Virus record (IMG/VR): IMGVR_UViG_3300028423_000861
Span: 1 to 64,000 of that record
Source: a virus
Length of the DNA stretch: 64,000 bases
Direction: 5' to 3' (one strand)
The translations under genes and the position numbers were made by a program. Below, piece after piece: positions 22,678-44,285 of the stretch. Position 1 is the stretch's first letter. Each line of letters starts with the position of its first letter. The notes beneath the pieces were generated by a model, which had not been told where the DNA came from, made no database searches, and saw only the letters and a program-made list of their open reading frames with translations.

Positions 22678-24072
22678 TTATGAACGTGCTCTAGTAACTA
22701 CATCCTGCCAGTCTGGTTGTGAAAGAACTTTACCATTCTCGAACACAGTTTCCAGACGATTCACACCAGGATAACGCATGTCGCCCTTGAGTTCATCCTC
22801 ACGGATAGTTTCAAATTCTCCATCCTTTTTAACAAGGGCTAGTCGACCACGTTTACTACGCTTTCCTGAATCAGTAACAGGATCTTTATAAACATCTTGC
22901 CATTCTCCATTAATCTGGATAGCAGAACATTTCATTGCAAATCCCATGGTATCACGGTCACTTGCCTGTAATAGAGCACCTCCCATTCCAAATGCAATAT
23001 TACTAATCGAGTAACCTTCATCAACCAGGTTGTTCATGATTTCTACAACACTGTCATGATTGATACCATCACCCTGAATAACACGGACATTATTTAGAAC
23101 ACGATATCCTTTTGTATTGAGTGTGCTACCGAATGCTTTGTCCAGTCTTTTTACAACTTTAACCGGGACAGTGGTTGGATCGCCACTATCGGGTCTCACA
23201 ACCAGCATGGCATCCATTTTTTCCACTCGATCGCGTAGCTCTTTGCCCCAGAGGTTTTCGGTTGCATTCCAGATATCATAACTGTCACTCACACAAGCCA
23301 AAAGCATCCCGCCACCAAATTGGTCAATCATGTTCTCAAATGCACGGACCTCATTTTCACGACCCCAGCTAGTAATAGTGGAGTGTTCGCTTGCTGGAAT
23401 ACTTGCGGCAGTGCCTTGTGCAGGTGCATCGTAGTATTTCATAGCATACATCAATGCAGTGCCTGTATCGGTGCCCATGAAATTAACCAGATGTGCTGCA
23501 CCCCCGATCGAGGAGCTCTCAGAGCTACTGACACCCCTTGCACCGAAATCATGCAGTTTGAATGCAATTTCAGCATCTGCATCATCTGCGGTTTCTTTAA
23601 GACGCTGGTAGATCTTGTCGCGAATCGTGCCGCTGAGTGACGCGACGGTAGTAGGATACCATACACGCATGAGTTTTGTTTCAACCCAAGTAGTAAGCCA
23701 AAAGAATTCTGGATCAGTGTTTACCACTTGAACTAGCACGTTACCGTGTTTCATGCGAGTTCCCTCGGGCGCTGCCTGGATTCGGAGCGGTAGTCGCCCC
23801 TCATGCTTTTCCACAATCCTCATCCAACCCTTTCGGTTGAACGGCAGACCCTGAGCAGTCCAAATCTTATCGGCATAATCAACATCTTCCGCAGTGATAG
23901 GAGTTGCCAGCTCTTCTAATATTTGTTGCAAGCCAAAGAATGTAACCTGCTTCCAAGGGTTCTTTCTAGCTTCTACATAACTTGACACATATTCTGTGCC
24001 GGGTGGGTATTGCTTCCACATACTCACTTTGTATGAGTCTGTATCTAGTAGAATTGAATTGTATTTTGTCAT
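22678..24072 (-). CDS. nadV: Nicotinamide phosphoribosyltransferase
   Basis: A 464-residue NAMPT that makes nicotinamide mononucleotide from nicotinamide and PRPP. Family blocks include LLDTDSYKVSMWKQYPPGT at the start, HDFGARGVSSSESSSIGGAA (near 170-190), VVRPDSGDP (near 295), and VIQGDGINHDS with GMGGALLQ further on. It follows the NadM-Nudix gene in the same operon, together forming the NAMPT plus NMNAT route (NARP2) known to refill NAD+ during phage infection. Its ribosome site is in the loop of a hairpin. Confidence 0.95.
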   Translation of the reverse strand: MTKYNSILLDTDSYKVSMWKQYPPGTEYVSSYVEARKNPWKQVTFFGLQQILEELATPITAEDVDYADKIWTAQGLPFNRKGWMRIVEKHEGRLPLRIQAAPEGTRMKHGNVLVQVVNTDPEFFWLTTWVETKLMRVWYPTTVASLSGTIRDKIYQRLKETADDADAEIAFKLHDFGARGVSSSESSSIGGAAHLVNFMGTDTGTALMYAMKYYDAPAQGTAASIPASEHSTITSWGRENEVRAFENMIDQFGGGMLLACVSDSYDIWNATENLWGKELRDRVEKMDAMLVVRPDSGDPTTVPVKVVKRLDKAFGSTLNTKGYRVLNNVRVIQGDGINHDSVVEIMNNLVDEGYSISNIAFGMGGALLQASDRDTMGFAMKCSAIQINGEWQDVYKDPVTDSGKRSKRGRLALVKKDGEFETIREDELKGDMRYPGVNRLETVFENGKVLSQPDWQDVVTRARS

Positions 24073-24119
24073 AACTAATCTCCTTAGTTTTTGTGTTTGC
24101 GGTCATTCGTTCTCCACGA
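24073..24119 (-). promoter_or_regulatory. Two GGAGA-loop hairpins at the nadV start
   Basis: Reading the RNA 5' to 3', the first hairpin is UCGU-GGAGA-ACGA (24119-24107) at the end of the upstream gene. The second is AACUAA-GGAGA-UUAGUU (24089-24073) directly before AUG, with the ribosome site GGAG in its loop. The second hairpin is identical to that of pnuC. Loops showing GGA are the classic target of CsrA/RsmA proteins. Confidence 0.6.
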
Positions 24120-24399
24120 CGCCGCATCCGTGGTTTTTTCTAATTGTTTCGACCACGAATCCTTTAAGCTTAATTCTCTCATTAAGCAATTCTATTTTAT
24201 CGACTGGAGTTTGATCGATAAGTTCGTTCAAATGATCAACAACTTCTAACATAGGATCATACATGCATTCTTCACAGGGGTATTGTTGATGAGTCTCTCC
24301 AGAAATTACTGGACAATCATCATCAAAATACTTGCATCCATGATAAACACAACAATGTGATGCATGAACCCCTGTTTGATTTGCCTTTTCAAAGACCAT
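24103..24399 (-). CDS. Cysteine-rich hypothetical protein, 98 aa
   Basis: The N-terminal half holds seven cysteines and several histidines (HASHCCVYHGCKYFDDDCPV, YPCEECMYDP), typical of a zinc-binding fold, and the second half is helical. It sits between the NAD+ genes in the same operon. Function not recognised; the position suggests but does not prove a role in NAD+ metabolism. Confidence 0.7.
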   Translation of the reverse strand: MVFEKANQTGVHASHCCVYHGCKYFDDDCPVISGETHQQYPCEECMYDPMLEVVDHLNELIDQTPVDKIELLNERIKLKGFVVETIRKNHGCGVVENE

Positions 24400-24617
24400 T
24401 AATCATCTCTATCGATTACGTTTATACATTTTTCCTGCCAGTCTTGAACATCTCCCGTGTCCGGACCAAAAATTGCTCCGAAACTAAGTCCAACAGTTTC
24501 ATCTAACATTAAGTTATCGCCATCCTGAACTTTGAGTTGTCCGGTATATTCATCAATACGTGTGACTGTGCACAGGTATTTGCCGTCAAGAGTTGCCTCC
24601 CAAATATTGTCGGACAT
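24399..24617 (-). CDS. Small hypothetical protein, 72 aa
   Basis: A beta-rich acidic protein (IWEATLDGKYLCTVTRIDEY). The ATG at 24617 overlaps the stop of the NadM-Nudix gene (TGATG), with GGAG just upstream. Function unknown. Confidence 0.62.
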   Translation of the reverse strand: MSDNIWEATLDGKYLCTVTRIDEYTGQLKVQDGDNLMLDETVGLSFGAIFGPDTGDVQDWQEKCINVIDRDD

Positions 24618-25669
24618 CAGAGCATCTCCATAATAATTGAATAGTGGTCCTCGAAAAGCAATTGTGGATTTTCTTTCACAAAGCTGATCGGATACCATGC
24701 AGCGTCGATCGCATCGTCTCCGCCTTTTACTCGAAAAAGTGATTTCCCATCAGGGAATTTGAATCTAAACGCTGTTGTAAGAGTAAACCCTCTGACAGAA
24801 CGACTCGGATCATCAAATCTTCGCTCTTCACCCGTGTAAAAACCGCGAAGCTTACCACGTGGAATTCGACCTCTTTCATCCTGGATGCCTGCTTCTTCCC
24901 AGAGTTCATAGAGAACGTTTTCGAAACTGTCTCCTTTGTGAGGATCAACAAAACCACCAGGTAAAGCCAACTGTCCCTTACCTGGGAATCCGCCCCGTGT
25001 AACAAGAAGAATGTGACCCATTTGGGTGCAAACAGCGTCACACGTAATGAACGTAGGTGGGAACGGGCTGTTCGCCCAGCTTTCTTTATATGCATCCATC
25101 CATTCTTTTTCTTCCAAAACATAACGGAATTCTTCTTTTTCATAGAATTCCACGAGGTATTCTAGGACTGGCTCAGGAACCAATCTAACCGGAAAGTGCG
25201 GAGCTCTCTGGAAATAATTTTCACGAATTTCAGTCGCGCTAAGAGTAGCGAACCCTCGCTCCATCATGATTTGTTCGGCATTCGGGAAAAGATCTAGGTA
25301 ATAGCTACTGGCATCTTTCTTGTATCCAATGATACCAAGAGTGTCATCTTTTGACAAGTGTTTGTCAACGGCTGCATAGACATTGCCGAGCCATTCATCG
25401 TCATTTCCAGGAACATCGGGCAACGGTTCAACGTATACACGAGAGATATCACCGTCTCGTGCATTGTGATCGTGTCGGAATGCTTCCTCGATCATGCGCT
25501 CACGTTCTTCGAATGTCCAGGGATTTTTGAATGAGCGAGCTTTATTGCTCCCTCCGACTAGGACGACCACTCGTTCAGCGTGTTCAAGTCCAAAGTCAAT
25601 TAAGTGTTTGTGTCCCATATGAAATGGCTGGAACCGGCCGATCAGAAAGGCTGTGCTTACCTTTGTCAT
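24617..25669 (-). CDS. nadM: Bifunctional NMN adenylyltransferase / Nudix hydrolase
   Basis: A 350-residue fusion. The N-terminal NMNAT has GRFQPFHMGHKH (11-22) and the closing SATEIRENYF. The C-terminal Nudix domain has GGFVDPHKGDSFENV followed by LYELWEEAGI, with the Arg of the usual REXXEE replaced by Tyr. It turns NMN into NAD+, and the Nudix half probably cleaves ADP-ribose. The ATG at 25669 is set by the GRFQPFHMGH position and the hairpin ribosome site. It works with NadV downstream. Confidence 0.93.
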   Translation of the reverse strand: MTKVSTAFLIGRFQPFHMGHKHLIDFGLEHAERVVVLVGGSNKARSFKNPWTFEERERMIEEAFRHDHNARDGDISRVYVEPLPDVPGNDDEWLGNVYAAVDKHLSKDDTLGIIGYKKDASSYYLDLFPNAEQIMMERGFATLSATEIRENYFQRAPHFPVRLVPEPVLEYLVEFYEKEEFRYVLEEKEWMDAYKESWANSPFPPTFITCDAVCTQMGHILLVTRGGFPGKGQLALPGGFVDPHKGDSFENVLYELWEEAGIQDERGRIPRGKLRGFYTGEERRFDDPSRSVRGFTLTTAFRFKFPDGKSLFRVKGGDDAIDAAWYPISFVKENPQLLFEDHYSIIMEML

Positions 25670-25712
25670 AACAAACTCCTTGTTATCTATATCTTGCAAA
25701 CTCTCCGCTTGC
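25668..25712 (-). promoter_or_regulatory. Two GGAG-loop hairpins in the nadM leader
   Basis: The RNA first forms GCAAGC-GGAGA-GUUUGC (25712-25696, one G-U pair) and then AUAACAA-GGAGU-UUGUUAU (25686-25668), whose 3' arm includes the AU of the start codon. Stem sequences differ completely from those at nadV and pnuC while the five-base loop is kept, which argues for selection on the structure. Confidence 0.62.
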
Positions 25713-25717
25713 GTCCT

Positions 25718-25725
25718 TATTTATC
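25718..25725 (-). promoter_or_regulatory. Late-promoter-like octamer GATAAATA for nadM
   Basis: GATAAATA on the minus strand, placed so that a T4-type start about six bases downstream would begin the RNA at the first base of the leader hairpin (25712). Confidence 0.45.
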
Positions 25726-25838
25726 ATACTACATTATTGATTCAGTTTAGTCATTACGAATTTTTCACCCATAACGTCTTGGATATTCTTTCGGGTTCTT
25801 TGCCAGGAATCCAAATAGAACGATTTCGAAAACAGACA

Positions 25839-26252
25839 TTAAAATCCAACACTTACCGGGCCGCGATGTGAAACATAATATCCAAGATCATCAACCGTGT
25901 TAAAAGAAGTCAATCCGCTTTGGAATGCACCCATTTTGAACATCACGAGTATTTCGGATATTTGTTCTTTTAACCACATCATTTCACCACGCTTTAAGCC
26001 CTGGCGGCCTCGAAAACGAACATCCACTGCCCCGGTCCGAGAAACCCTCGCAACAACAGCACAATGATCTTTATCAGTAGGAGTATACCAATTGATATCA
26101 TCTCCAAAGCTGATTTCATAAATTGTATGTGTTTTGATACGGTTTTCTTCGTCTTGTTTCAATTCTCGCACAAAGACATCACCATTGGCGATTGATCTTT
26201 CGATAATAGGACGCAAGATTTTAGTTTGTCGTCCTTTTTTCTTCCCCATCAT
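25839..26252 (-). CDS. Hypothetical protein with internal VMFKMG motif
   Basis: A 137-residue protein, basic at the N-terminus (GKKKGRQTKILRPI). The shared motif appears as SEILVMFKMGAFQSG about 30 residues from the end. Last gene of a run of seven members of this set between 25.8 and 28.8 kb. Function unknown. Confidence 0.7.
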   Translation of the reverse strand: MMGKKKGRQTKILRPIIERSIANGDVFVRELKQDEENRIKTHTIYEISFGDDINWYTPTDKDHCAVVARVSRTGAVDVRFRGRQGLKRGEMMWLKEQISEILVMFKMGAFQSGLTSFNTVDDLGYYVSHRGPVSVGF

Positions 26253-26547
26253 ACATTCCCATCTTGAACATTACTGTATATTCAGAACTGATATCAGCAA
26301 TATGTTTGCTGGCTTCATCGGTTATATCTTCTGTTTTAAGATTAATTCTCATACGATTATTAAGAACACGATCACTTGTGTTGTAGATAATCCAATCAAG
26401 TCTCCAGTATTCAATTTCTGCAAATCTAACAAAATAGGAATAATACGCTCCCCTGTCAGAAATCAGAACCTTGTTGTCCTGAAAAGATTTCTTGATTGCC
26501 CGCGCCACCGATTGAGAACGAACACCTGTATGATCATAACTTTGCAT
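26221..26547 (-). CDS. Hypothetical protein with C-terminal VMFKMG motif
   Basis: A 108-residue protein ending IADISSEYTVMFKMGMYDG plus a short polar tail; the motif is nearly identical to that of the next gene down. Overlaps it by 32 bases. Function unknown. Confidence 0.72.
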   Translation of the reverse strand: MQSYDHTGVRSQSVARAIKKSFQDNKVLISDRGAYYSYFVRFAEIEYWRLDWIIYNTSDRVLNNRMRINLKTEDITDEASKHIADISSEYTVMFKMGMYDGEEKRTTN

Positions 26548-26548
26548 A

Positions 26549-26941
26549 TCAAATCGTCATCTTGTGCATTACCCAGAGCTCGTGACTGAGTTTATTAACA
26601 TAACCAATAGAGGTATGGCTCATAGGAACACTTCTTAAATTCCATTGTGAGAACCCATCTATTACACAGTCTTTTCTGGTTACGTGACTATTTACATCTG
26701 TAGCTACGAACCATTCAGTCCAAATGTTTCCATCATCACGACAATGCCAATATAGATCTGCTCCATATTTACTAAACATATCATTAACAAAAAATCCGAT
26801 AACGCCTGTGTATGTTCTTACATCATGCTCGGGACCCAGTTCTATTTGTCCATGATTAAACACTTGCAACTTGTCTGAATTCTGAAGAACCCTGTTTAGG
26901 AACATGCGATCATAACGAATGTCTTCGATAAATTTAATCAT
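26549..26941 (-). CDS. Hypothetical protein with C-terminal VMHKM motif
   Basis: A 130-residue protein with an aromatic, beta-rich centre, ending NKLSHELWVMHKMTI. ATG at 26941 is preferred to an upstream TTG. Member of the same set. Confidence 0.7.
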   Translation of the reverse strand: MIKFIEDIRYDRMFLNRVLQNSDKLQVFNHGQIELGPEHDVRTYTGVIGFFVNDMFSKYGADLYWHCRDDGNIWTEWFVATDVNSHVTRKDCVIDGFSQWNLRSVPMSHTSIGYVNKLSHELWVMHKMTI

Positions 26942-27287
26942 TGCCAAGCTTTTGCATTATCTGATATTCACTCAGGGTTTTAACCAGCCACTTATGAGTT
27001 TTAAAACTCACTGTAACTGCTACACCGCCGTGGACTATGATAGTATGAGGTCTATAATTAATCTTGTTGGGTGTAAAAATAATTCTTGCAATTTCTTCAG
27101 TTCTTAGAAATTGGGTATCAGCATACGGAACAACTCTGTCAACCAATGCCATCCATCGATTGTCATCAAGCCGATAAAAATCGATAGTATTATCTTTCAT
27201 GGCACGATTAACAGCACAGCGGACAAAACTGTCAGTGTCTTTGAAATCGTTTATAGTGGATTGTTGGTATGGGTTGTCTTGATTCAT
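26934..27287 (-). CDS. Hypothetical protein with C-terminal IMQKLG motif
   Basis: A 117-residue alpha/beta protein ending VKTLSEYQIMQKLGND, with a beta strand just before (GVAVTVSFKTHKW). Overlaps both neighbours by a few bases. Function unknown. Confidence 0.72.
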   Translation of the reverse strand: MNQDNPYQQSTINDFKDTDSFVRCAVNRAMKDNTIDFYRLDDNRWMALVDRVVPYADTQFLRTEEIARIIFTPNKINYRPHTIIVHGGVAVTVSFKTHKWLVKTLSEYQIMQKLGND

Positions 27288-27703
27288 ATTGAAGTTACAG
27301 ACATGTCATCGTTATCGTCATGGACAAATTTACCCTCGAGCTTGGCCATGGTAAGAATTTGCTCAGTATAAGGACGAAAACGATTCTTGAGAGCTTGAGA
27401 TTTCACCTTGCGCACACTGGCTGGGCTGCTACGCTGATGGAAATCGCGAGCAAGATCACCATCTTTGTCGATTGTAAAACCGTAACAACGACCCAAGCCG
27501 TCACGAAATTCAACCATGAGCTGTGATGATCCAGATGACCAATCAGTGTAAATTTCGGTATCATAGGAATTATCATCCCAAGCTTTTAAAAATGCCTGAT
27601 ACATGTGGTTTCTTTGTTGATGATACCCTTTGATCACCAGAACCCATATGGTTGCATATACTGCAAAAACAAGACCAAGCAAAACTAGTAGTGTAGTAAA
27701 CAT
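27284..27703 (-). CDS. Membrane-anchored hypothetical with TMAKL motif
   Basis: A 139-residue protein with an N-terminal transmembrane helix (LLVLLGLVFAVYATIWVLV), a soluble beta-rich domain, and YTEQILTMAKLEGKFV near the end. It shows that the recurring motif can be attached to a membrane anchor. Function unknown. Confidence 0.7.
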   Translation of the reverse strand: MFTTLLVLLGLVFAVYATIWVLVIKGYHQQRNHMYQAFLKAWDDNSYDTEIYTDWSSGSSQLMVEFRDGLGRCYGFTIDKDGDLARDFHQRSSPASVRKVKSQALKNRFRPYTEQILTMAKLEGKFVHDDNDDMSVTSI

Positions 27704-28215
27704 TAAATCATCCTCAAATTTTCCCGTTCTTCAGGAGTTTTATATAGGTGTCTATCGTGCATAAAATATCCATCTTCTGGACATCTTTTATCATAATGGA
27801 AATTCATAATGTCTCGAAAATGATATCGAAACGGGTCGCCTTCTTCATAATTATAACCATCGGTGATAAGGCTGTCACCGCTGATTTTAGCCATTACATA
27901 TCGTTCATTTAGAACTTCCTGCAAATCATGGTATGACTTGTCTTTGTTAAGTAGGTAAGGACAGATGGTATCACGGAGATACCCAGTGTAGCTGTCGGGG
28001 AGAAACCACACATACATATAATACCAATTAAATTTAGGATTGGATTTTGGATTGTTTATGTTTCGGAAAAGCAGTATAAATTTTTTATTTTCGGGTTTGT
28101 TCATACCACTGTGGTATCGAAATCCATCTGACATGTTTTCTAGAAAGACATTATCCGACTCTACTTGTCGGATAATGTCGCTCATATTAATTGTAGCCAT
28201 GTTCTTGCGTGTCAT
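27703..28215 (-). CDS. Hypothetical protein with internal VMAKISG motif
   Basis: A 170-residue aromatic-rich protein. The motif LNERYVMAKISGD is about 60 residues from the C-terminus, followed by a distinct aspartate- and histidine-rich tail. AAGGG precedes the ATG. Function unknown. Confidence 0.68.
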   Translation of the reverse strand: MTRKNMATINMSDIIRQVESDNVFLENMSDGFRYHSGMNKPENKKFILLFRNINNPKSNPKFNWYYMYVWFLPDSYTGYLRDTICPYLLNKDKSYHDLQEVLNERYVMAKISGDSLITDGYNYEEGDPFRYHFRDIMNFHYDKRCPEDGYFMHDRHLYKTPEERENLRMI

Positions 28216-28260
28216 TTGCTACCCTTCTTGGGATCGAAAACAAACGTCTGTAAAAATACT

Positions 28261-28806
28261 TTACCCATTTGCTAATTTCCACAGCGTATATGTCTCATCT
28301 GAAATTTTCATAATTCGTTTTCTTTGTTTACGAGACATGGGATAATGTTCAGTGTCGTTGATTAACATATAACAAGACTCGAATTTTTGACTAACAGGAT
28401 CATATAACCATTCAATATGATCAAATTGAAATTTGTAAGTATTGTTTTTTAGGTGTTTGAGAATTTCATCTTTGGGTTCTGTGCCAAGATATTTACAATG
28501 TTCAAAATTCAATTCAGCTGTCTTGGATTGAACCTCTTGCAAAGATAATTTCAATGCACTCATATGAGATTTCAAACTGTCTGGAGGTAAATACTTTTTC
28601 TTTTCATTGAGCATTTTCGCTCTGGTTAATTTTATAATATTGACATTTTGATGGTTATTAACAACACTGTCAACAATATTTTTTGTTTTGAACCGTCTAA
28701 AGATCTGTTTAAATAACCAGAGAAATTCTTTGGAATCGAGTAACACAGCAAGACTGAAGGACACGCCAGCCACTATAAGGCTGGCGATCAAAAAATCAAG
28801 TATCAA
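28261..28806 (-). CDS. Membrane-anchored hypothetical with TLWKL motif
   Basis: A 181-residue protein with an N-terminal membrane segment (FLIASLIVAGVSFSLAVLL), a basic helical middle and the C-terminus KISDETYTLWKLANG. The start is TTG at 28806, joined to the HAD stop as TTGA. Member of the shared-motif set. Confidence 0.65.
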   Translation of the reverse strand: MILDFLIASLIVAGVSFSLAVLLDSKEFLWLFKQIFRRFKTKNIVDSVVNNHQNVNIIKLTRAKMLNEKKKYLPPDSLKSHMSALKLSLQEVQSKTAELNFEHCKYLGTEPKDEILKHLKNNTYKFQFDHIEWLYDPVSQKFESCYMLINDTEHYPMSRKQRKRIMKISDETYTLWKLANG

Positions 28807-29276
28807 GGTTGTTGTTCCACGTTGAACACGAACGTGCCTCGCTCCTTCCACATACGAACAACACGGTCACGGTCTTCGAACACCATACTGATCGGCTTGT
28901 TGTATTTTTTCTCGAGACGATCAGCATGAAGACGTTTTTGTTCTACATCCGGCGTGTGCTGGTCACCTTGCTTGAGAAGAAGTTCGTCAGGCAGTGGCAG
29001 ACCATTACGCTGGAACCAATCCACAGTCATGTCATACACTGCATGATCACGCCCGCTGAGAACAACCACAGTCACATCTGGGTCATTTACAAATTTGTGG
29101 TAAAAGTATGCGACTTCGTCAATCAGTCCGTCATCCACACATGCAGCATGGAACAGGTCAAAACGGCGCTTGACCTTTTTACCTGTCTCAGGATCAACAG
29201 CCGGATCTGGCCGGATATGATGCATACGATGACGCACGTCAGCCAGCGTTCCGTCAAGATCAAAAATCACAAGCAT
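28803..29276 (-). CDS. HAD phosphatase resembling the 3'-phosphatase half of T4 Pnkp
   Basis: A 157-residue HAD protein: FDLDGTLADVRHR at the start, VVVLSGRDHAVYDMT near 73, LLKQGDQHTPD near 100, and VFEDRDRVVRMW near 135. The order and spacing match the phosphatase domain of T4 polynucleotide kinase, which removes 3'-phosphates during RNA repair. The kinase half is not attached; a separate kinase-like gene lies at 40884. ATG at 29276 has GAGGAG six bases upstream. Confidence 0.82.
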   Translation of the reverse strand: MLVIFDLDGTLADVRHRMHHIRPDPAVDPETGKKVKRRFDLFHAACVDDGLIDEVAYFYHKFVNDPDVTVVVLSGRDHAVYDMTVDWFQRNGLPLPDELLLKQGDQHTPDVEQKRLHADRLEKKYNKPISMVFEDRDRVVRMWKERGTFVFNVEQQP

Positions 29277-29300
29277 GATCATCTCCTCTATTACACTTAC

Positions 29301-29329
29301 ACTATAACCGATGTGTCATGCCGTGTCAA
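29301..29329 (-). promoter_or_regulatory. Sigma70-like promoter
   Basis: TTGACA (29329-29324), 17 bases, TATAGT (29306-29301), followed by the HAD gene and probably the run of motif genes down to 25.8 kb. Confidence 0.7.
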
Positions 29330-30392
29330 GAAGACTTTCAATGCTGTGATCTTTTTGAGTTCCAAGCATGTGATCAATTGCAATACTTACTTGATCAACG
29401 CGACGTTTACGATTAGTCTCGGTGATCACGACCTGTTCTGAATTAAACAATGGTTGATTGATAAATTTGGTATTTTGCAATATCTTGCCATAAAATTCCA
29501 TTCTTTCCGTATATGATGACATCACTCTTGATCCATCATCAACCCATTCCAGAAGGGGAGGAACGTATACCCAGAGATCAAAAAACTGTGTATACATTGC
29601 CATATCGGGTCCTAGCTCTTTGATATCTTTATTAATATAATACTGTGCATAGAGCCACGTCGTGATCATTTCAGTATCAACGAAAACTAGACCTGTCTCG
29701 GTTTCTTCAGTGGCTTTTTTGATCATAAAGTTGTGGCGGTAAGCGATTTTGAAAAAATCATCTTGCGATAAATTATTCAACTGGGCTTCGCTGAGAACAC
29801 GTCCATATTCATAAACTGCCGGGCTATTGAAAGTCCTAGCAAGGTCACTGACAAGTGTGGTTTTGCCAGAACTCTCAGGACCAACTACCACTACCTTTTT
29901 GGCCCAAAGTGGACGCATTTCTTTACTGATATATTTCCAGTTTTCAAGAGGGTTTTCACGTATCTGTGTCCCGCTGATGTCAAATAGCTCACGATTTGGA
30001 TCTACCGGGAACCATTCGATTCCCAGGCGTTTTGCCATTTCTTGACCATACATATCGGACGACACAACATAATCTGCATTGGGAGCATATTTTTTAAACA
30101 CACTAACCCAATAATCCCAGAAATCTTCATCCAGTGCAGTCCCGTTCTCATCGTATGCACGGGCTGGGCCATATCTATCACCATGATGTAGAAAAGTGAT
30201 ATTGTCATGATTGGCATACTTCTTTGCTATAGTCCGAAAATGGTCTGGACTAGACATGACAAAATGATCATCAGCACTCACAATGACTACGAGTTGATCT
30301 AGTTCATGTGCAGCCATTTCGATCATGAGTTCATGCCCCTTGTGTAGGGGCATGAATTTTCCAATTGTTATTCCGACAGTTTTCTTGACCAT
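29316..30392 (-). CDS. nadR: NadR-type NMN adenylyltransferase / ribosylnicotinamide kinase
   Basis: A 358-residue bifunctional enzyme. The NMNAT half has GKFMPLHKGHE (11-21) and ISGTQIRENP (139-148). The kinase half has the P-loop GPESSGKTTL (171-180) and the later DTEMITTWLYA. It phosphorylates nicotinamide riboside to NMN and adenylates NMN to NAD+. No DNA-binding N-terminus is present, so it is not the repressor form. Its ATG overlaps the pnuC stop, matching the usual PnuC-NadR partnership. Confidence 0.95.
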   Translation of the reverse strand: MVKKTVGITIGKFMPLHKGHELMIEMAAHELDQLVVIVSADDHFVMSSPDHFRTIAKKYANHDNITFLHHGDRYGPARAYDENGTALDEDFWDYWVSVFKKYAPNADYVVSSDMYGQEMAKRLGIEWFPVDPNRELFDISGTQIRENPLENWKYISKEMRPLWAKKVVVVGPESSGKTTLVSDLARTFNSPAVYEYGRVLSEAQLNNLSQDDFFKIAYRHNFMIKKATEETETGLVFVDTEMITTWLYAQYYINKDIKELGPDMAMYTQFFDLWVYVPPLLEWVDDGSRVMSSYTERMEFYGKILQNTKFINQPLFNSEQVVITETNRKRRVDQVSIAIDHMLGTQKDHSIESLLDTA

Positions 30393-31024
30393 TACACGAT
30401 CTCCAGTGCTGGTTCAGATTCTTGTTTTGCATAATCACGATACCACGCGATTCCGCCGATGGTAGCAAGAACTAGGAATAAGACATATAGACCGCTTGTA
30501 ACAACCAGTCCTTTTGCATAGTATACTCCGATAGCAATCACATCCATGGTGACCCAGAGAACCCAGCTTTCACGATATTTCGCAATCATGAGCAATTGTG
30601 CAGCAATACTCATCCAAGTAGTCAGAGCATCTATATAAGGGAAACTAGCACCCACAGTGTAGTTCGCTACAAGATAGCCGTTTACACCGGCGGCGCCGAG
30701 TATACCCAGACCGATTAGTAGAAATTGAACCACAGTAAGTGATCTCACAACGCTGTCGTTCTCAGCTTGTCGCGCGGCCCTACGCCACATGACAAAGCCG
30801 ATTAGCTGCATGGGTAGATAGAACAGGATTTGCAATCCTGCATCTGAATAAAGTCCGAATTGAAAGAAAAGATATCCGAAAAGAATGACACCTAGAGCGC
30901 CAAAAAACCACGTCCAAATATTGTGCCTTATAGCAAGGTAGACGCAGATTGCGGAAAAAATGGTCCCAAATAATTCAACTTTGCCTAGGGGACCCGCAAA
31001 GTATGCGAGAATTGTCTCGATCAT
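30392..31024 (-). CDS. pnuC: Nicotinamide riboside transporter
   Basis: A 210-residue membrane protein with about seven transmembrane helices and PnuC features (WTWFFGALGVILFGYLFFQ; LWVTMDVIAIGVYYAKGLVV). PnuC lets nicotinamide riboside enter, and the NadR kinase traps it as NMN. Together with nadR it forms a second, independent NAD+ route beside NadV and NadM. It has its own promoter and a leader made almost entirely of two hairpins. Confidence 0.93.
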   Translation of the reverse strand: MIETILAYFAGPLGKVELFGTIFSAICVYLAIRHNIWTWFFGALGVILFGYLFFQFGLYSDAGLQILFYLPMQLIGFVMWRRAARQAENDSVVRSLTVVQFLLIGLGILGAAGVNGYLVANYTVGASFPYIDALTTWMSIAAQLLMIAKYRESWVLWVTMDVIAIGVYYAKGLVVTSGLYVLFLVLATIGGIAWYRDYAKQESEPALEIV

Positions 31025-31069
31025 AACTAATCTCCTTAGTTTTGTATAACGCTAGAACTCCTCTAGCGT
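31025..31069 (-). promoter_or_regulatory. Two GGAG-loop hairpins forming the pnuC leader
   Basis: The first hairpin has an 8-bp stem (ACGCUAGA with UCUAGCGU) and loop GGAGU (31069-31049). The second is AACUAA-GGAGA-UUAGUU (31041-31025), with the ribosome site in the loop and AUG immediately after. Given the promoter position, these two hairpins make up nearly the whole leader. Confidence 0.65.
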
Positions 31070-31077
31070 CAATATTT

Positions 31078-31106
31078 AGTCTATGTTTGTATGTCTGTCT
31101 TGTCAA
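31078..31106 (-). promoter_or_regulatory. Promoter of pnuC-nadR
   Basis: TTGACA (31106-31101), 17 bases, TAGACT (31083-31078) on the minus strand; transcription would start at about 31071, just before the first leader hairpin. Confidence 0.65.
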
Positions 31107-44209: not shown

Positions 44210-44285
44210 TGGTGCCCCATGTGGGATTTGAACCCACGCACTCAAGATTTTAGAGATCCTGGCTCTACCGCTGAGCTAATGGGGC
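44210..44285 (-). tRNA. Amber-suppressor tRNA (anticodon CUA)
   Basis: Full cloverleaf with encoded CCA: acceptor GCCCCAT/ATGGGGC, D-arm GCTC-AGCGGTA-GAGC, anticodon stem AGGAT/ATCTT with loop CTCTAAA, T-arm GTGGG-TTCAAAT-CCCAC. With U33 before and A37 after, the anticodon is CTA, complementary to UAG. The variable region is six bases. The amino acid carried cannot be told from sequence. Its D-arm supplies the TAG stop of the overlapping 104-residue gene. Confidence 0.88.

Follow-up and report, generated by a model that had tools for sequence, protein, structure and literature searches.

Tandem hairpins at the NAD+ salvage genes of a phage

Depletion of nicotinamide adenine dinucleotide (NAD+) ranks among the main immune strategies of bacteria, and phages can rebuild the cofactor by a route that uses NadV together with NadM (PMC9503650). 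In the literature searched, we found no report of how this phage pathway is controlled. The virus considered here, represented by a 64,000-nucleotide (nt) stretch (hereafter the window) of the 142-kb record IMGVR_UViG_3300028423_000861, carries on its minus strand three NAD+ salvage genes, each headed by a pair of hairpins that together form a putative RNA control element. These presumed target genes are nadV (22678..24072), encoding a nicotinamide phosphoribosyltransferase of 464 amino acids; nadM-Nudix (24617..25669), encoding a bifunctional nicotinamide mononucleotide (NMN) adenylyltransferase/Nudix hydrolase of 350 amino acids, which is also our candidate reader of the element and whose nearest solved structure is 2qjo (E 4e-64); and pnuC (30392..31024), encoding a nicotinamide riboside/mononucleotide transporter of 210 amino acids (PF04973). 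A nadR-like NMN adenylyltransferase/kinase gene (29316..30392, minus strand), whose start overlaps the pnuC stop, has no hairpins of its own and is probably translated by coupling to pnuC.

In each leader, the hairpin proximal to the AUG presents the Shine–Dalgarno (SD) sequence as its loop, as an initial annotation of the window had noted; all six hairpins that it described are present at or near the positions it gave, on the minus strand throughout. The proximal hairpins of nadV (24073..24089) and pnuC (31025..31041) are both AACTAA-GGAGA-TTAGTT, with 6 base pairs (bp), and lie flush with the AUG, while that of nadM-Nudix (ATAACAA-GGAGT-TTGTTAT, 7 bp, 25668..25686) takes the first AUG bases into its stem. 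Upstream lie the distal hairpins: GCAAGC-GGAGA-GTTTGC at nadM-Nudix (6 bp including one G-U, 25696..25712), a 10-bp stem around GGAGT at pnuC (31047..31071), and, at nadV (24099..24125), a GGAGA loop (24111-24115) closed by four contiguous pairs, TCGT/ACGA (24107-24119), and a bulged GCGG/CCGC helix. The last of these is the weakest of the six and overlaps the 3′ end of the preceding open reading frame (ORF).

Folding of the three leaders yields exactly these hairpin pairs, and each fold is more stable than all 200 of its shuffles (z = −4.25 for pnuC, −3.16 for nadM and −3.52 for nadV). Only four GGAGN loops on perfect stems of at least 6 bp occur on either strand of the 64 kb, and all four are among the six hairpins. 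The specificity for NAD+ genes, originally noted on a limited set of genes, extends to the entire 142-kb record: an SD sequence within a pentaloop hairpin is found at 3/3 of nadV, nadM and pnuC, versus none of the 133 other SD-bearing ORFs, even when a stem of 4 bp is accepted.

Octamers resembling T4 late promoters, GATAAATA and ACTAAATA, are located at about 25718-25725 and 31073-31080 on the minus strand, ending within about 10 nt of the nadM and pnuC distal hairpins. Because these octamers sit just upstream, the nadM and pnuC transcripts may begin with the first hairpin. In relatives, sigma-70-like promoters precede the two-hairpin element.

Covariation and phage distribution

A megablast search of the region against named phages returned no match. 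Loci carrying nadV in IMG/VR, whose proteins are 48-69% identical, have the same SD hairpin with other stems at both nadV and nadM, and most also have an upstream outer hairpin, G(AUAGA)C. Two further scans added 160 loci, many of the loci being fragments or contigs of metagenome-assembled genomes, and 157 distinct two-hairpin elements were extracted from the scanned loci, where they precede nadV, nadM or small ORFs just 5′ of nadM. SD pentaloop stems of at least 5 bp are present at 110 of 129 viral nadV and 87 of 129 viral nadM genes. Among other viral genes the figure is 34 of 1564, and the small ORFs just mentioned account for most of the 34.

Both stems covary. Since the covariance models described below were built from stem-filtered input, their pair counts are circular, and covariation was therefore assessed without any stem filter. 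Over five pairs, the SD hairpin is Watson–Crick at 80% in 212 viral leaders versus 43% when shuffled, and at 80% versus 39% in 90 bacterial leaders. The outer hairpin reaches 77%, against 46% and 50%. Most stem positions display all four Watson–Crick pair types, and a shift of a single base returns pairing to background, such that only the exact pentaloop register covaries. The proposal that the hairpins represent a selected RNA structure is thus borne out by covariation in both stems, which differ between relatives, and by gene specificity. As the arms differ freely while only their pairing is kept, it is RNA rather than DNA that appears to be read.

The claim of a constant GGAGA/GGAGU loop fares differently. 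It holds within the window phage; in relatives, the inner loop is constant only as GGANN, and most outer loops read AUAGA, GUUGA or GUAGU, with GGGGU, GGAGA, a tetraloop AAGA and a heptaloop GGUGAAU also seen across lineages. An invariant GGAGA/U outer loop is peculiar to the window-phage lineage. AUAGA and its G-C closing pair are strongly conserved, whereas the linkers between the two hairpins, 3-14 nt long, are not.

A covariance model, R1, built from other phages with the window phage excluded, gave exactly three matches on the whole window record, namely the leaders of pnuC (31022-31069, E 3.5e-6), nadV (24070-24120, E 0.0024) and nadM (25667-25701, E 0.0036); these E-values, like those of a further model, R2, are rough because calibration was shortened. 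Other phage records have strong R1 matches at their nad loci where checked. Among named phages, DSS3_MAL1 (Ruegeria), RcXuper (Rhodobacter), LucasX (Xanthomonas), B23 and BUCT-ZZ01 (both Synechococcus) and OC (Ochrobactrum) bear the element at both nadM and nadV, as does BcepSaruman, with tetraloops. Lacusarx, RHph_X66, Cp1R7A-A1, Mx1 and R11Z have no visible element at nadV.

Several individual loci are worth describing. Small ORFs that head the nadM operon with the same element (L086 5467-5820, L101 5673-5996, L004 3054-3428 and L081 5529-5993, plus strand) are mutually unrelated and without assigned function (phrog_37251, phrog_12218, phrog_33851 and none, respectively). In L035, two ORFs (8985 and 10919, plus strand) make up a split nadV, and a separate two-hairpin element stands before each. 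In a rare case outside NAD+ metabolism, a major head protein gene of L051, and likewise of L050 and L053-L055, begins with a AACTAAGGAGATTAGTTATG hairpin (7095-7115 in L051, plus strand) identical to that of nadV and pnuC in the window.

The element on bacterial chromosomes

A scan of GTDB contigs showed that proteobacterial chromosomes, too, can carry the element ahead of nadM and nadV. Outer loops of AUAGA, AAAGA or ACAGA occur in Thiothrix, Microbulbifer, Thalassolituus, Pseudoalteromonas, Alcanivorax and others, and GUUGA in Variovorax and relatives. The best 30 R2 matches in 20 whole bacterial genomes all (30/30) fall at nadM or nadV starts, and in one genome (G055) the two genes reside on separate contigs with the element at both. 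R1 found one match, a nadM, over 274 gammaproteobacterial genomes; R2 over 369 genomes returned strong matches (E under 1e-4) exclusively at nadM, and its weak ones look like chance.

Rfam, searched in both gathering and E-value modes with the window and the viral and bacterial loci, produced no plausible match, and the searchable literature, which excludes most subscription papers, held no report of the element by loop sequence or of a nadV or phage NAD+ riboswitch. The element therefore looks previously undescribed, and its occurrence in many unrelated phages and on proteobacterial chromosomes looks widespread.

Two unrelated features were encountered along the way. The window contains a tRNA gene with anticodon CUA (44210-44285, minus strand), and TAG is the stop of just 3 of 103 ORFs of at least 150 amino acids in the record; with such a tRNA and so few TAG stops, amber suppression or recoding is possible. 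A transfer-messenger RNA-like gene lies on a phage contig (L001 18057-18432, plus strand; Rfam beta_tmRNA and permuted tmRNA).

A candidate trans-acting reader

We tentatively propose that the tandem pentaloop hairpins constitute an RNA operator for the translation of NAD+ salvage genes, and that NadM-Nudix is the leading candidate for its reader, a reading that we hold at somewhat less than even confidence. The GGANN loop of the proximal hairpin would present or hide the SD sequence beside the AUG, while the distal hairpin, with its lineage-specific loop, would anchor the reader. A trans-acting factor binding both hairpins would cover the ribosome site whenever there is no need for NAD+ salvage; the control of translation, its direction (repression) and the identity of the reader are all inferred. 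The reader would most likely be encoded by the module itself, with NadM-Nudix (NMN adenylyltransferase/ADP-ribose pyrophosphatase) serving as an autogenous repressor that also acts on nadV and pnuC.

The case for a trans-acting reader rests on the agreement of outer-loop classes within genomes although the stems differ. With classes assigned by regular expression, such that some mismatched outer hairpins count as absent, the nadM and nadV classes agreed in every genome where both could be classed (113 of 113: 97 RNAGA, 15 GNDGA and 1 GGRGW). On quick trees with long branches, the outer-loop class changes three times on the NadM phylogeny, the minimum for four classes, versus seven times on that of NadV. 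AUAGA occurs at 101 of 113 nadV loci in phages of NadM lineage A and at 0 of 43 in those of lineage B. NadV proteins of the two groups interleave, and a nearly identical NadV that keeps company with the other NadM lineage has a different nadV leader. In bacteria, nadV shows element features in 59 of the 63 genomes that encode NadM-Nudix, versus 2 of the 17 that do not. Together, these patterns favor a co-evolving trans-acting reader, with NadM-Nudix as the best candidate, over an aptamer for a fixed ligand.

Several observations weigh against NadM-Nudix in this role. The fit to the NadM tree is partly trivial, because nadM leaders move with nadM; its informative part is the nadV result. Phylogenetically independent contrasts all run in one direction and are too few for significance, in phages (4-5 to 0 of 6 pairs, p 0.06-0.25) as in bacteria (about 2.4 to 0 of 6), and the Fisher p of 7e-11 for the bacterial co-occurrence of NadM-Nudix and element ignores relatedness. 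Four bacterial genomes, as well as Lacusarx, RHph_X66, Cp1R7A-A1 and R11Z, have NadM-Nudix and no element at nadV, and at some nadV genes the SD hairpin has no outer partner. To our knowledge, no RNA-binding role has been described for NadM-Nudix.

Taken as a whole, the picture is that of a possible, hitherto undescribed and widespread RNA regulator of NAD+ salvage in phages and proteobacteria, in which NadM-Nudix might repress its own and partner mRNAs through tandem pentaloop hairpins, operator and enzyme would co-evolve, and derepression could restore NAD+ when immunity destroys it; we would put this full scenario a shade below the operator proposal itself. A conserved RNA element at exactly the NAD+ genes of phages and chromosomes renders control of the pathway directly testable, and one of two things is predicted: an enzyme with a second role as RNA-binding repressor, or a novel riboswitch built of tandem hairpins.

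Alternative explanations

Such a riboswitch is the main rival, though we consider it rather unlikely. Both loops would dock on a ligand (NAD+, NMN, nicotinamide riboside or ADP-ribose) and thereby bury the SD loop, in the manner of the loop-loop docking of the guanidine-II riboswitch. As no protein would be needed, the device would work in hosts as unlike as Ruegeria, Rhodobacter, Xanthomonas and Synechococcus; its association exclusively with NAD+ salvage genes and the strong conservation of AUAGA and its closing pair also speak for it, and tandem-hairpin riboswitches do exist (PMC5486947). A fixed ligand sits poorly, however, with an outer loop that changes completely between lineages while the genes stay the same, with short and unconserved linkers, with the many nadV leaders that have the SD hairpin and lack the outer one, and with the absence of any Rfam match.

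A distinctly less probable option is a different RNA-binding protein as reader, be it NadV, a small operon protein or some factor of the host. Concordant loops within genomes would need some trans factor, whichever it is, and in many phages small ORFs 5′ of nadM bear the same element. Loops fit the NadV phylogeny worse than the NadM phylogeny, however, and the small ORFs were rejected as reader, since they belong to different families without known function and none is seen before nadM in the window.

Far more doubtful is a purely non-regulatory role, in which the 5′ hairpins would protect the mRNA, as the initial annotation had suggested as an option, or present the SD sequence for efficient initiation. 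The late-like octamers that closely precede the first hairpin of nadM and pnuC would suit this idea, but the element follows sigma-70-like and late-like promoters alike, its loop sequences are kept by lineage, and protection alone leaves unexplained why it is nearly absent from the other genes of the same genomes.

Slimmest of all are the prospects of host CsrA/RsmA, or a phage homologue, blocking translation from both GGA loops: this proposal of the initial annotation gains from the GGA in all six loops of the window phage and from the presence of csrA in most gammaproteobacteria with the element, but csrA is found in 0 of 20 tested phage records and in just 2 of 41 Variovorax-family genomes, even though Variovorax has the full element.

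Comparison with known regulatory systems

The same conclusion emerges from a structural comparison with CsrA/RsmA leaders such as that of glgC. Like these, the window phage has GGA in its loops with one site over the SD sequence. CsrA targets feature an ANGGAN hexaloop, and most CsrA hairpins obtained by systematic evolution of ligands by exponential enrichment have shorter stems than the inner hairpin of the NAD+ element (PMC7652899). In contrast, this inner hairpin has a 5-nt loop on a stem often of 6-8 bp, most outer loops of relatives lack GGA, and the element is restricted to NAD+ genes.

Among tandem-hairpin riboswitches, guanidine-II (mini-ykkC) is nearest, sharing two small hairpins, conserved loops and a short linker. 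In place of its ACGR tetraloops, the NAD+ element has RNNGW or other loops together with GGANN (SD) loops, and the first loop varies by lineage. NAD+-I and NAD+-II riboswitches likewise occupy leaders of NAD+ genes, NAD+-II at pnuC, and act at the ribosome-binding site; for NAD+-I, the comparison draws on the Rfam search. NAD+-II, the pnuC motif of Streptococcus, is a single compact fold with P1, P1a and a pseudoknot (PMC7749635), whereas two separate hairpins fit the present data.

Two further systems bear a more superficial likeness. NrtR, a DNA-binding repressor of the Nudix family, also ties a Nudix-related protein to the control of NAD+ metabolism; it reads DNA sequence, and an NrtR-like DNA operator was rejected here because the arms diverge in sequence and yet still pair. 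T4 RegB sites share GGAG in phage SD sequences; RegB cleavage is hindered by structure, and a RegB site was rejected mainly on the GGAUU or GGAAC loops of relatives. A search for the RegB family in six phage records gave no match and is uninformative, as the control search also found none.

Functionally, the nearest case is the operator of the T4/RB69 DNA polymerase gp43, which represses its own translation by means of an upstream hairpin and sequence over the ribosome site, and whose hairpin loop differs between related phages (UAAC, UAAA) (PMC3014915). In both systems, hairpin structure lies ahead of the ribosome site and covers it. Unlike the gp43 operator, the NAD+ element comprises two hairpins, stands at several presumed target genes of NAD+ salvage and extends to bacterial chromosomes, with NadM-Nudix as a candidate reader in the position that gp43 occupies in its own system.

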